In this document: in pieces, positions 47,704 to 63,669 of the stretch
How the letters are laid out: each line of letters opens with the position of its first letter
Numbering within the stretch: position 1 is the stretch's first letter
Assembly: GCF_037892425.1 (NCBI RefSeq)
Contig: NZ_JBBKTT010000001.1
Location: forward strand, 2,852,001-2,916,000
Origin: Lacibacter sp. H375
GTDB lineage: Bacteria > Bacteroidota > Bacteroidia > Chitinophagales > Chitinophagaceae
Length of the DNA: 64,000 nucleotides
Direction: 5' to 3'
Translations under genes and position numbers: made by a program
Notes under the pieces: generated by a model
The model's input: the letters and a program-made list of their open reading frames with translations, nothing else
Databases searched by the model: none
What the model was told of the DNA's origin: nothing

Positions 47704-48753
47704 TTAGATTACCAACATCGCATCTCCATAACTGAAGAAACGGTATTTGTCTTTAATTGCTTTTTTATATGCTTCCATTGTAAGATCGTAACCGGCAAAT
47801 GCACAGGTCATAATCAACAAACTTGTTTTTGGCAAGTGGAAGTTTGTAACTAATGAATCAGCAATATTAAAATTGTAAGGAGGGTGAATGAATATATTCG
47901 TCCAGCCTTCGCTTGGTTTTAATAACTGCTGTGCCGTAAATGACGTTTCCAAAGCACGCATAGTTGTTGTGCCAATGGAACAGATGCGGTTTTTGCCTTC
48001 TTTTGCTTTGTTTACGATCTTGCAAGAGAACTCATCGATCTTATAATACTCTGCATCCATTTTATGTTTGCTCAGGTCTTCCACTTCAATAGGGCGGAAG
48101 GTTCCTAAACCTGTATGCAATGTAACTTCTGCAAAACGCACACCTTGAATTTCCAAACGTTTGATCAACTCCTGGCTAAAGTGCATGCCGGCAGTTGGAG
48201 CTGCAACAGCACCTTCATGTTTTGCAAACACTGTTTGGTAACGCTCACGGTCCTCATCATCTGGCTTACGCTTAATGTATTTTGGAAGTGGCGTTTCGCC
48301 CATTGTATACAATACCGTGCGGAACTCTTCATCAGTACCATCAAATAAGAAACGAATGGTACGTCCACGTGAAGTGGTATTGTCAATTACTTCAGCAACC
48401 AAATCTTCGGTATCGCCGAAATACAGTTTATTACCAACACGAATCTTTCTTGCGGGATCAACGATCACATCCCACAAACGGTTTTGCTTGTTTAATTCAC
48501 GGAGAAGAAAAACTTCGATCTTGGCACCTGTTTTTTCCTTGCGGCCATACATGCGGGCAGGAAATACTTTGGTGTTATTCACTACAAAAACATCCTTGTC
48601 ATCGAAGTATTCCATGATATCACGGAACTGACGGTTTTCAATTTGGCCTGTTTTGCGGTGAACCACCATTAAACGGCTGTCTTCACGTTTCTTTGTAGGG
48701 TTTTGAGCAATGAGGTTGAGGGGTAGATCGAACGTAAACTGTGATAACTTCAT
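47704..48753 (-). CDS. queA: S-adenosylmethionine:tRNA ribosyltransferase-isomerase
   Basis: 349 residues, usual length. Family motifs: [23 protein letters not shown] at the N-terminus, [44 protein letters not shown], and the C-terminal [18 protein letters not shown]. It transfers the ribosyl part of SAM to preQ1 at tRNA position 34, giving epoxyqueuosine. The gene is preceded by an unusually long, structured leader with its own promoter (48755-48880), described separately. No other queuosine genes are adjacent. Confidence 0.97.
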
Positions 48754-48754
48754 A

Positions 48755-48860
48755 CTGCGTTTTATAATTTTAGTAACGGGTGCAAACGCAGCGTTGAGGT
48801 GAGTATTCGGGAGTGACTCTCCAAACCCCGTCTTACGGCACCGGGTTTGAACCTGTTACT
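48755..48860 (-). promoter_or_regulatory. Structured 5' leader of queA, candidate cis-regulatory RNA
   Basis: The transcript from the promoter at 48873 has a leader that can fold into a closed multibranch element: AGTAAC (48855-48860) pairs with GTTACT (48772-48777), enclosing a hairpin with AAACC/GGTTT and CCGT/ACGG stems (48823-48848), a GGAG/CTCC hairpin (48810-48822) and an AACG/CGTT hairpin (48785-48795). A second, mutually exclusive pairing joins CTGCGTTT (48784-48791) with AAACGCAG (48755-48762), the latter just before the start codon. That is the arrangement of an aptamer with an expression platform. The ligand would plausibly be linked to queuosine or SAM. I do not recognise preQ1-I or a SAM class in it. 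Confidence 0.6.
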
Positions 48861-48872
48861 TTTTAATGCGTG

Positions 48873-48880
48873 CAAAGGTA
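48873..48880 (-). promoter_or_regulatory. Promoter -7 element TACCTTTG of queA
   Basis: Perfect TAnnTTTG on the minus strand, 120 nt upstream of the queA start codon. It fixes the leader as part of the transcript. Confidence 0.75.
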
Positions 48881-48917
48881 AGGAATTCAGGCGAAAACCG
48901 GGGAAACTTATCCACGG

Positions 48918-50654
48918 TTAACTAACCTGTGCTATCCGGCCGGGAATAGCAGCGAGTAATTGGCGGGTGTAGGCAGTCTGGGGACGGGAATAAATATCTT
49001 CTGCGTTACCCATTTCTTCAATTTGGCCTTTGTTCATCACAACAATACGGTCGCAGATATAACGCACCACCGAAAGATCATGGGAAATGAAGATAGAGGT
49101 GAAGTTGAATTCCTTTTTCAGATCGTTGAGCAGATTGAGTACCTGGGCCTGCACACTAACATCCAGAGCTGAAACAGATTCATCCCACACAATAAAGGAT
49201 GGATTCAAGGCCAAAGCTCTTGCTATTACGATCCGTTGCCGTTGACCACCACTGAATTCATGCGGATACCGATTGAAATGATCTGGAGTTAGATTTACTT
49301 TTTCCAACAACTCCATCACTTTTTCTTTCGCTTTCTTTTGGGTGGGTTGAAGTTGATGGACCAGCATTGGTTCCGCAATGGCATCGCCAATGGTTATACG
49401 TGGATTCAATGAAGAGTATGGATCCTGAAAAACGATCTGCAGGTCTTTGCGTTGTTGTTTGAATGCAGCAGAAGATTTACTGAGAATGTTTTCACCATTC
49501 AACAGAATACTGCCCGATGTTGCATCAACCAAACGAAGCAAGGCTCTGCCCAATGTTGTTTTACCGCAACCGCTTTCACCCACAAGCCCTAACGTTTCAC
49601 CGTTGTACACATCAAAACTTACATTGTTTACTGCCTTGATAAAGGATGATGATTTGCCAAATAGTTTCTTTTGTTCAGGAAACCAAACGTTCAGGTTTTT
49701 AATTTGAAGAAGAGGAGTGGGGAATTGGGAATTGGGGATTGGGAATTGTGAATTTGGATTTTGGATTTTGGAATTTGGATTTTGTACTTGGGGATTTTCA
49801 TTTTCCATTTCCAAGAAATCACTCACCACCGGTAACCGTTTTCCTTTTGGATGAAGTGCAGGCCGGCAAGCCAGCAATGCTTTGGTATAAGGATGTTGCG
49901 GATTGTTGAAAAGGTCTTTTACAGAACCTTGCTCCACAATTCGCCCTTTATACATCACCACAATCTTATCTGCAATATCATGCACCACACCAAGGTCATG
50001 GGTAATAAACAAAACGCCCATGCCCGTTTCCTGCTGCAATTCTTTTATAAGTTGAAGTATGGTATTCTGCACTGTTACATCCAACGCTGTTGTAGGTTCA
50101 TCAGCAATTAATAGTGATGGGTTACAACTCATCGCCATTGCGATCATCACCCGTTGCTTTTGTCCGCCACTTAGCTGATGCGGATAACGGCTAAGCATAG
50201 CTGCCGGGTTAGGAAGCTTAACTTTTTCAAATAGTTGCAGAGTTCTTTTTTTAGCTTCTTTATGATTTACTTTTTGATGAAGCTGAATTGCTTCCATCAC
50301 TTGCATACCACATGCAAAAACCGGGTTGAGTGATGTCATTGGCTCCTGGAAAATCATGGCAATTTCATTGCCACGTATGCCTTGTATTTCTTGTGCTGAA
50401 GCTTTCAGCAGATCAATAACAGAGCCGTCTTTTTTGGTGAAATGGATGCTGCCGTTGGGGTAAGAAACCGGAGGCTGTGGAATCAATTGCAGTGCAGAAA
50501 GTGCAGTAACAGATTTGCCAGAACCACTTTCACCCACCACTGCCACAGTTTCTCCTTTACCAACCGTGAATGAAATACCATGAATGGCTTTTACAATGCC
50601 TTCTTCTGTTTTGAAGTTTACGTCAAGGTTATTTATTTGAAGCAAATCTGTCAT
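48918..50654 (-). CDS. Peptide/nickel-type ABC transporter ATPase, two fused ATP-binding domains (DppD-DppF/YejF-like)
   Basis: 578 residues. The first ABC domain (1-265) has Walker A GESGSGKS, signature LSGGQKQR and Walker B LLIADEPTTALD; the second (about 325-575) has Walker A GESGCGKT, signature FSGGQRQR and Walker B FIVWDESVSALD. Oligopeptide-type OPP_C tails follow each. The linker (about 280-315) is a run of N/P/Q/S/F repeats (QNPNSKIQNPNSQFP...) coded by simple-sequence DNA. No permease or binding-protein gene is adjacent, so the cargo is unknown. The start shares one base with the amn stop (TAATG), so translation is coupled. Confidence 0.93.
   Translation of the reverse strand: MTDLLQINNLDVNFKTEEGIVKAIHGISFTVGKGETVAVVGESGSGKSVTALSALQLIPQPPVSYPNGSIHFTKKDGSVIDLLKASAQEIQGIRGNEIAMIFQEPMTSLNPVFACGMQVMEAIQLHQKVNHKEAKKRTLQLFEKVKLPNPAAMLSRYPHQLSGGQKQRVMIAMAMSCNPSLLIADEPTTALDVTVQNTILQLIKELQQETGMGVLFITHDLGVVHDIADKIVVMYKGRIVEQGSVKDLFNNPQHPYTKALLACRPALHPKGKRLPVVSDFLEMENENPQVQNPNSKIQNPNSQFPIPNSQFPTPLLQIKNLNVWFPEQKKLFGKSSSFIKAVNNVSFDVYNGETLGLVGESGCGKTTLGRALLRLVDATSGSILLNGENILSKSSAAFKQQRKDLQIVFQDPYSSLNPRITIGDAIAEPMLVHQLQPTQKKAKEKVMELLEKVNLTPDHFNRYPHEFSGGQRQRIVIARALALNPSFIVWDESVSALDVSVQAQVLNLLNDLKKEFNFTSIFISHDLSVVRYICDRIVVMNKGQIEEMGNAEDIYSRPQTAYTRQLLAAIPGRIAQVS
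49718..49787. repeat. Simple-sequence tract inside the ABC linker
   Basis: Degenerate tandem units of GGGAATTG / GGATTTTG type (GGGAATTGGGAATTGGGG, GATTTTGGATTTTGG), in frame and without stops. They code only for the linker between the two ABC domains. Confidence 0.75.
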
Positions 50655-51430
50655 TACTCTTCAAACCTCAGATGTTTTACCGTGTTGCCGTTGTTGATGA
50701 GTTGTTTCAAAGAATCAATTCCGATTTTAATATGCTTCTCAACAAAATGACTGGTTACTTTTTTATCACTCTCCTCTGTCTTTACACCTTCGGGAGTCAT
50801 TGGGCTATCACTCACTAGCAACAGAGCACCTGTTGGAATATGATTTGAGAAGCCTACCATAAAAATAGTAGCAGTTTCCATATCAATAGCCATGGCTCTT
50901 ACTTTTTCCAGGTAGGCTTTAAATTCCTGATCGTGTTCCCATACACGTCGGTTAGTAGTGTAAACAGTTCCTGTCCAGTAATCACTGTCGAAATCACGTA
51001 TGGTTGTTGATACTGCTTTTTGTAATGCGAAAGATGGTAGTGCCGGTACCTCTGGTGGAAAATAATCACGACTTGTACCTTCACCACGTATGGCAGCGAT
51101 GGGAAGAATCAGATCACCTATTTTGTTTTTTGCTTTCAACCCGCCACACTTGCCTAAAAACAAAACTGCTTTTGGTTGAATGGCTGATAAAAGATCCATT
51201 ACCGTAGCTGCGGTAGCACTTCCCATTCCGAAATTAATGATGGTGATACCATCTGCCGTTGCACATTGCATGGGTTTGTCCAGACCCGTTACTTCTACTT
51301 TGTTCCATTCTGCAAACATGTTTACATAATTGCTGAAATTTGTGAGCAGAATATATTCACCAAATTCTTTAAGTTGTTTACCAGTGTAGCGAGGCAGCCA
51401 GTTCTTAACAATGTCTTCTTTTGTTTTCAT
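50654..51430 (-). CDS. amn: AMP nucleosidase (short Bacteroidota type)
   Basis: 258 residues, much shorter than the 484-residue E. coli Amn; it is the catalytic nucleoside-phosphorylase-like domain only. Motifs: NFGMGSATAATVMDLL, FLGKCGGLK, GEGTSRDYFPPEVPA, AIDMETATIFMVGF (the EMExA-like active-site segment) and LLLVSDSPMTPEGVKTEESDKKV. It splits AMP into adenine and ribose-5-phosphate. The ABC ATPase gene follows with a one-base overlap. Confidence 0.92.
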   Translation of the reverse strand: MKTKEDIVKNWLPRYTGKQLKEFGEYILLTNFSNYVNMFAEWNKVEVTGLDKPMQCATADGITIINFGMGSATAATVMDLLSAIQPKAVLFLGKCGGLKAKNKIGDLILPIAAIRGEGTSRDYFPPEVPALPSFALQKAVSTTIRDFDSDYWTGTVYTTNRRVWEHDQEFKAYLEKVRAMAIDMETATIFMVGFSNHIPTGALLLVSDSPMTPEGVKTEESDKKVTSHFVEKHIKIGIDSLKQLINNGNTVKHLRFEE

Positions 51431-63463: not shown

Positions 63464-63520
63464 TTAACGGTTAAAAAATTGAAATCGGAAATGCTGCGTA
63501 ACGGAGAGAGGAATATGCAT
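63464..63520 (-). other. Candidate 18-codon leader ORF between TPP riboswitch and the receptor gene
   Basis: ATG at 63520, 18 codons and TAA (63464-63466), ending 12 nt before the receptor start in the same frame. A GGAGG lies 6 nt before its ATG (63527-63531), ideal spacing, which is unusual here since strong Shine-Dalgarno sites are rare. The GGAGG abuts the 3' strand of riboswitch helix P1. It may be a real leader peptide or the remnant of an earlier receptor start. Confidence 0.4.
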
Positions 63521-63531
63521 GAAGAACCTCC

Positions 63532-63632
63532 TTCCCTGCGCAGGCATTACCCTGATCAGGTTCTACGGGTTTAATCTCAGCCTCCGTACTGGTTCCGGGC
63601 CCTGGAACCGACGGGTAAGCACCCCGGGGAAT
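63532..63632 (-). promoter_or_regulatory. TPP (thi-box) riboswitch
   Basis: On the minus strand the aptamer reads CCGGGGTGC at the 5' side, a P3 hairpin with a near-perfect palindrome (63591-63609, GGTTCC...GGAACC), the conserved CTGAGA (63575-63580), and ACCTGATCAGGGTAAT and GCC at 63543-63561, closing by a TTCCC/GGGAA P1. These are the invariant parts of the thiamine pyrophosphate aptamer. It lies 80 nt upstream of the TonB receptor. Confidence 0.96.
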
Positions 63633-63669
63633 CTGTGTCAAAAACCGGCTAACCGCTTTTTCGACGCTG

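Follow-up and report, generated by a model that had tools for sequence, protein, structure and literature searches.

The window analysed here is a stretch of 64,000 nucleotides from Lacibacter sp. H375, and the coordinates given for the locus refer to it. The gene downstream of the leader was confirmed as queA, as the first-pass annotation had read it, and it is preceded by the element TACCTTTG (48880-48873, minus strand), which we take to be a promoter of the Bacteroidota TAnnTTTG type. A site of the form TAnnTT[TC]G is located within 250 nt 5′ of queA in 280 of the 298 leaders compared below. The distance from TACCTTTG to the ATG agrees with the leader length of about 115 nt proposed earlier, counted from a predicted transcription start. 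The features of the gene and its promoter are as follows.

47704-48753, minus strand: queA, tRNA preQ1(34) S-adenosylmethionine ribosyltransferase-isomerase, 349 aa (NCBIfam NF001140 and TIGR00113, both above cut-off)
48873-48880, minus strand: promoter element TACCTTTG, read from the sequence
48754-48868, minus strand: 5′ leader of the queA mRNA, its predicted transcription start placed by the distance from promoter element to ATG

Two further products are encoded upstream of queA on the same strand (both within 48918-51430, minus strand): an AMP nucleosidase (PRK07115 equivalog), and a protein of 578 aa that contains two ABC ATPase halves of the peptide-transporter type and scores above the PRK11308 cut-off. 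Elsewhere in the window, a TPP riboswitch scores above threshold at 63516-63636 on the minus strand.

The leader had been described as a multibranch junction with three inner hairpins, closed by an outer helix AGTAAC/GTTACT and opposed by an alternative helix of 8 bp that reaches the bases before the AUG. The elements of the fold, as read in the present analysis, are listed here.

48852-48860, minus strand: 5′ strand of the outer helix P1, AGUAACAGG, from the fold (all 14 leaders of the window's genus can form its duplex with the 3′ strand)
48772-48780, minus strand: 3′ strand of P1, CCCGUUACU, from the duplex with the 5′ strand
48822-48849, minus strand: CYGUAA hairpin H, CAAACCCGGUGCCGUAAGACGGGGUUUG, from homologous hairpins (with an internal mismatch in most of the window's genus)
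48833-48838, minus strand: hexaloop CCGUAA, resembling positions 32-37 of the tRNA-Tyr anticodon loop
48783-48791, minus strand: switching strand CUGCGUUUG, which has two alternative partners, CAAAC in H and the bases before the AUG
48755-48762, minus strand: AAACGCAG, target of the switching strand just 5′ of the AUG, exact complement of 48791-48784

The outer helix, whose two strands are exact complements, closes the predicted fold. The minimum-energy structure (-31.6 kcal/mol) is a single long imperfect helix, in which AGUAACAGG-CAAAC is paired with GUUUG-CACC-GUUACU. The second fold (-30.8 kcal/mol) contains a local hairpin CAAAC...GUUUG with a CCGUAA loop, together with CUGCGUUU paired to AAACGCAG before the AUG. 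The combination of the outer helix with the local hairpin reaches only -26.0 kcal/mol, and the multibranch junction was rejected, as the two alternative folds are more stable by 4.8 to 5.6 kcal/mol. Therefore, the switch part of the earlier observation holds and the junction part fails. The 8-bp helix is formed by the exact complements CTGCGTTT (48791-48784) and AAACGCAG (48762-48755), the latter being the bases before the AUG, and it is incompatible with the first fold, so that the two structures exclude each other. Each of the 14 genus leaders can form both pairings. On its own, the leader is more stable than shuffled versions of itself (z -2.34, matched by 5 of 200), whereas with coding sequence included z is only -1.24 and 24 of 200 shuffles match it.

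The hairpin H, CAAACCCGGUGCCGUAAGACGGGGUUUG with its CCGUAA loop, had been overlooked in the first-pass annotation. Across the genus (14 leaders), little or no variation is found in the loop, apart from C or U at the second base, in much of the 5′ arm or in the two GUUUG copies, and the inner 3′ arm of H is variable. The comparison beyond the genus identifies the hallmark of the queA leader as this hairpin with a CYGUAA hexaloop, not the multibranch junction.

Searches for QueA succeeded in 38 of 39 relatives, 113 of 119 genomes of the order, 142 of 147 of the family and 245 of 247 of the phylum, and at least 80 named loci were added to the sample. The leader set consists of the DNA upstream of 300 queA genes, a subset of all QueA matches, and 298 of these provide at least 100 nt; two sequences start inside the gene (L070, L108) and two have too little upstream DNA (L061, L248). 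Thinning by shared 8-mers left 241 non-redundant leaders. When hexaloops on a stem of at least 5 bp were tallied, with one closing mismatch tolerated, CCGUAA occurred in 105 of the 241 leaders, CUGUAA in 6 and the next hexamer (ATATTT) in 5. When 20 sets were simulated with matching dinucleotide composition, counts stayed at or below 8 for every hexamer and at or below 2 for CYGTAA; these controls, like those for start-region complementarity and accessibility below, are first-order Markov simulations and not exact dinucleotide shuffles. With a stem of at least 4 bp, the CYGTAA hairpin is present in 119 of the 241 leaders and occurs twice or more in 11, although counts by the stem rule omit ten leaders of the window's genus (L001-L010) due to their internal stem mismatch. 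The enrichment also appears without pre-selection for stems: such a stem surrounds 120 of 140 CCGTAA occurrences in leaders compared to 9 of 312 in the remainder of these loci, and 8 of 28 CTGTAA occurrences compared to 13 of 367.

The stem is maintained by compensatory change. In 91 hairpins, all eight stem pairs change on both sides, with 262 cells compared to a shuffled mean of 105. These hairpins had been pre-selected for stems of at least 4 bp, so that paired cells are over-represented among them, and the probable chance hairpins L124 and L264 were excluded. Sliding the stem partners abolishes the signal. The loop-closing pair is found as G-C, C-G, A-U and U-A, and the loop-flanking bases in 130 hairpins are GC in 41, GG in 37, CG in 22, AT in 14, TA in 11, AG in 3 and TG in 2. 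Thus, the covarying homologues 5′ of queA in related genomes, on which the first-pass annotation had made its switch depend, do exist. The loop is far less tolerant. Of its 18 possible single-base variants, only C to T at position two is seen repeatedly (in 6 leaders); three further variants appear a single time each and the remainder are absent. A minimal upstream reading frame AUG-CCG-UAA (start-Pro-stop) was considered and dropped, since the first triplet is unconserved (GCG, AUA, GAG and AUC occur). One queA leader (L121) carries the hairpin CTAGCC-CCAGTAA-GGCTAG, whose 7-nt loop corresponds to a hexaloop-like sequence with one added base.

The palindromic arms, often located just 3′ of promoter-like sites, could also be read as a DNA operator for a transcription factor. 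This reading is highly improbable, as the arms vary with compensation around a fixed, non-palindromic centre and the hairpins occur in one orientation only: of the 16 CYGTAA occurrences on the reverse strand of the leaders, none has such a stem. The element therefore acts as RNA and not as a DNA palindrome. Taken as a whole, the sequence comparison makes it almost certain that a conserved RNA hairpin is tied to queA.

The distribution was scored by a rule that accepts hairpins within 210 nt of queA if their stem has 4 bp or more or if they take the form of the window's genus. By this rule, the hairpin is present in 83 of 97 genomes of the window's family and in 58 of 77 named loci, in 25 of 67 genomes of the order's other families (L124 among these probably by chance), in 4 of 44 of the class's other families and in 0 of 13 of other classes. 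Two of the 14 family genomes scored as lacking it (L267, L273) bear GGTGCCGTAAGACC, which the rule overlooks. On a tree of 143 QueA proteins, 94 of them with the hairpin, its presence requires at least 12 changes; therefore, the hairpin was gained or lost repeatedly. The position relative to the gene also varies. In 25 of the 241 leaders, the loop ends at most 10 nt from the AUG, which places the start codon within the 3′ arm or next to it, as in TTCATA-CCGTAA-TATGAA of Chitinophaga filiformis (L084) and CATATC-CTGTAA-GATATG of Taibaiella (L100); the shortest such leader is only about 30 nt long. Among 130 hairpins, 16 are located at -11 to -40 and 89 further upstream.

The published queA-linked motif to which the first-pass annotation alluded does exist: Rfam contains the queA RNA (RF03093), reportedly described by Weinberg et al. 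in 2017. The leader in the window fails to match it. The covariance model has 59 positions and a threshold of 52.6 bits, and it finds nothing in window 48700-48960 at E up to 10, nor anywhere in the genome of the window at E up to 1. Over 147 family genomes, matches exceeded the cut-off in 10 and reached E 1 in 65, not all of them at queA, in a scan with stricter filters that lose weak matches. The leaders that the model recognises are those whose first hairpin is of the UUCAUGCCGUAACAUGAA type. Both RNAs lie in the queA leader, and the first hairpin of RF03093, UUCAUG-CCGUAA-CAUGAA, carries a hexaloop identical to that of the window (48833-48838), where the stem has an internal mismatch. RF03093 consists of two hairpins followed by AACUGAAUGUGGCUAU, whereas the window has one CYGUAA hairpin and a different tail; it lacks a first hairpin of the RF03093 type and has another outer helix and another distal strand. 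Five leaders (L019, L037, L038, L152, L156) are intermediate, combining a first hairpin of the RF03093 type with a second one of the window type. From these intermediates we infer homology, and the leader of the window is therefore called a divergent relative of RF03093, not a member by the Rfam test. It is a divergent variant of a motif wider than the Rfam model. Two queA leaders of other families (L171, L172) have CATGTGACC or CATGTGGCC with CACATG, as in the two-hairpin form, and no CYGUAA hairpin. A phrase search in a limited collection of papers returned no mention of the queA RNA motif or RF03093. At the locus itself, nothing in Rfam reached gathering thresholds, and at E up to 10 only two entries appeared, far below their thresholds and on the other strand.

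The hairpin is nearly restricted to queA among the loci examined. A hairpin model searched against 99 genomes of the order gave 19 matches at E up to 0.001, of which 11 are queA leaders, 3 belong to hairpin arrays or a pair, 1 is at a contig end (G416) and 4 are others. The 30 loci retrieved for matches in these genomes comprise 10 queA leaders, 5 arrays or a hairpin pair and 15 others; within the last group, 11 lie inside open frames, one at a contig end and none at a gene start. The tgt gene was found in 23 of 24 genomes, and 22 of the 23 stretches upstream of it contain no CYGTAA stem of at least 4 bp. The exception (L405, in genome G025) has a CTGTAA hairpin, its stem 5 bp long, 182 nt 5′ of tgt; in that genome, tgt and queA are separated by about 5 kb. 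Most relatives also have a second QueA-like protein of greater length (G000:C1:2399131-2400321, a 445-codon frame), with 31-39% identity across them, and its leader has no hairpin. Likewise, all 12 leaders of queA paralogues lack a CYGTAA stem of at least 4 bp (one further sequence, L414, lies inside a gene and was excluded). An element of the whole Q regulon was rejected on the absence of the hairpin from these 22 tgt and 12 paralogue leaders.

The consequences of the hairpin for the start site were modelled across leaders. Within the genus, the outer duplex is predicted at -11.4 to -19.2 kcal/mol and the start duplex at -9.9 to -13.2 kcal/mol in the 14 leaders, several of which are near-identical. 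For 6 of the 8 types, the cognate strands of P1 form a better duplex than the median obtained with swapped partners. RNAalifold applied to the 14 leaders selects the hairpin with the start helix and reports conservation with little covariation; that this helix is conserved rather than covarying counts against the switch. In the start-site test, the hairpin was given a bonus of 8 kcal/mol or a penalty, and the unpaired probability was read at -10 to +3. Stabilisation of H lowers the accessibility of the start site in 14 of 14 genus leaders, by -0.18 to -0.64, compared to changes of only -0.08 to +0.09 when the intervening strand is simulated at random. In five of them (L006, L008-L011), H is dominant and the start site is predicted to be mostly closed even without the bonus.

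The same test on 78 other long leaders, a set that includes L016 (also among the genus 14) and L124, gave a mean change of -0.13 against +0.02 in the control. The change was -0.2 or lower in 22 leaders and +0.2 or higher in none (1 and 5 in the control), and in 56 the effect stayed below 0.2. Among 76 long leaders, the best duplex of the start region with the upstream strand ranks in the top 5% of 100 simulations for 34, in the top 1% for 15 and outside the top 5% for 42. The 56 leaders with small effects, these 42 and the five genus leaders that are closed without a bonus count against the proposed switch. These models make it reasonably probable that holding the hairpin closes the start site, which would give the element an OFF sign. 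Where an effect exists, this sign is the likely one and matches the leaders whose hairpin covers the AUG; most other leaders have no clear modelled effect.

Mutually exclusive folds, elaborate leaders bearing further helices, and an enzyme that uses SAM and preQ1-RNA encoded downstream are what a small-molecule riboswitch would present, with preQ1, preQ0, SAM or queuosine as the ligand and the CYGUAA hairpin as part of the aptamer. This was the earlier reading of the locus, and it fits poorly. The nucleotides common to all forms are the six of one loop on an otherwise free stem, and the hairpins at the AUG (25 of 241 leaders) leave scant room for an aptamer in a leader of about 30 nt. As the first-pass annotation had already noted for preQ1-I and the common SAM classes, the hallmarks of such aptamers are missing: no Rfam preQ1 or SAM family matched at the loci scanned, and the near-complete absence of the hairpin from tgt leaders points the same way. 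A metabolite riboswitch is thus quite unlikely, and the small core together with the AUG hairpins argues for a protein operator over an aptamer.

Which protein would bind such an operator has to be considered in the light of the hairpin arrays. Three genomes of one genus contain 9, 10 and 9 tandem CYGUAA hairpins with differing stems 3′ of truA (TIGR00071 above cut-off), located at 1266-1590 of L351, 1225-1520 of L354 and 1509-1800 of L336; in the first two, the array also lies 3′ of a short ORF ending in FYGAYF. No Rfam family matched these truA-downstream arrays. Another array, with five CCGUAA hairpins, was found in genome G017 (L342 1500-1712, G017:C1:2425267 onward) in the interval between a gene and the thymidylate synthase gene, and its last hairpin is followed by a terminator-like T run. 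A search with CCCCGTAAGG for a dispersed repeat led to the rejection of that idea, with 231 matches in 117 genomes compared to 504 for the reversed pattern; the matches exceed the control in 17 genomes, the array genomes included.

Such arrays suggest that another RNA-binding protein may recognise CYGUAA hairpins, with queA as its main mRNA target and the tandem-hairpin RNAs as its sponge, in the way that CsrB is a sponge for CsrA. The three truA-array genomes (G426, G437, G467) agree with this, as their queA leaders (L206-L208) have no hairpin. The arrays, however, are rare: in the family, a two-copy pattern matches 13 of 147 genomes and forms hairpin arrays only in G017. The retrieved loci likewise speak against a regulator with further targets, as the 15 that are neither queA leaders nor arrays include none at a gene start. 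Overall, this reading is unlikely, though less so than that of a riboswitch.

The candidate binder favoured here is QueA itself, picked because the element is nearly confined to queA among the loci examined and because its loop resembles the tRNA site of the enzyme. In the genome of the window, the anticodon loop of tRNA-Tyr is CUGUAAA, and those of the other tRNAs examined are CUGUUAA (Asn), CUGUCAC (Asp) and UUGUGGU (His). Among these four, CYGUAA corresponds to positions 32-37 of tRNA-Tyr with C or U at position 33; CUGUAA is an exact copy, and the loop in the window is identical at five of six bases, with C at 33. The resemblance is a likeness in sequence, which may reflect mimicry of the anticodon loop. 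That QueA binds H is a tentative proposal, to which we give slightly less than an even chance. A search of the PDB by sequence returned three QueA entries (1vky, 1yy3, 1wdi), and the listing shows RNA in none of them.

In the proposed mechanism, the leader would be a cis-acting translational OFF switch, bound by QueA through anticodon mimicry. The CYGUAA loop would copy the anticodon loop of a queuosine tRNA (tRNA-Tyr), and surplus QueA, free of its preQ1-tRNA substrate, would bind and stabilise the hairpin. In the window's genus, the bound hairpin would take CAAAC from the switching strand GCGUUUG, and the freed GCGUUUG would pair with AAACGCAG, closing the start site. When substrate tRNA is abundant, QueA would depart, the long P1 helix could form and queA would be translated; the release of the hairpin by preQ1-tRNA is a deduction from this scheme. 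In leaders of the Chitinophaga type, the AUG would be held by the hairpin itself, so binding would block the start directly. The whole chain is plausible, at somewhat under even chances. The loop usually has C33 where the Q-tRNAs have U, and it is one base short of a 7-nt anticodon loop. The reported minimum for E. coli TGT is UGU, according to the title of Nakanishi 1994 as cited in PMC3660597. The arrays in genomes without a queA hairpin are left unexplained by a model in which QueA is the only binder.

The G of CYGUAA is at the equivalent of position 34, which would allow TGT to exchange it for preQ1 in the mRNA and QueA to read or modify the product, so that the leader would report the state of the whole Q pathway. 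A precedent for such an exchange is the virF mRNA, a G of which can be replaced by TGT according to PMC3660597. Most loops contain CGU, against the reported UGU minimum, and this route is very unlikely. An equally doubtful extension makes the queA leader itself a substrate: preQ1 inserted by TGT at the loop G would be recognised or completed by QueA, the marked hairpin would report free QueA against unfinished tRNA, and the tandem-hairpin RNAs would be sponges working by the same recognition.

With these results, an Rfam entry covering few genomes is extended to an element that covaries widely and has a core of six bases, for which a plausible binder and a concrete mechanism of the OFF type are predicted. 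Should QueA bind, the tRNA-modification enzymes would join the aminoacyl-tRNA synthetases as self-regulators by anticodon mimicry, and queuosine levels would come under a kind of control distinct from both preQ1 riboswitches and transcription factors. If the leader is indeed a substrate, it would be an mRNA operator for a tRNA-modifying enzyme that works by anticodon mimicry, and we know of no earlier one.

Three known systems are close to the proposed one. The preQ1 riboswitches I-III likewise control a gene of the queuosine pathway from its leader; they differ from the queA leader in their conserved bases, and none has an Rfam match here. In the virF mRNA of the Shigella virulence regulator, a G of an mRNA is reportedly exposed to an enzyme of the Q pathway, as is proposed for the queA leader. 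It is not a conserved queA operator, and the queA loops have CGU more often than UGU. The thrS operator imitates an anticodon arm. According to PMC6542539, E. coli ThrRS (at the thrS operator) and yeast HisRS each bind their own mRNA and repress its translation, and the contact of HisRS is a mimic of the anticodon loop. Both are aminoacyl-tRNA synthetases with demonstrated binding, whereas QueA is a tRNA-modifying enzyme and a putative binder. The queA case is like theirs in that the loop of the leader is identical or near to the anticodon loop of the substrate tRNA.
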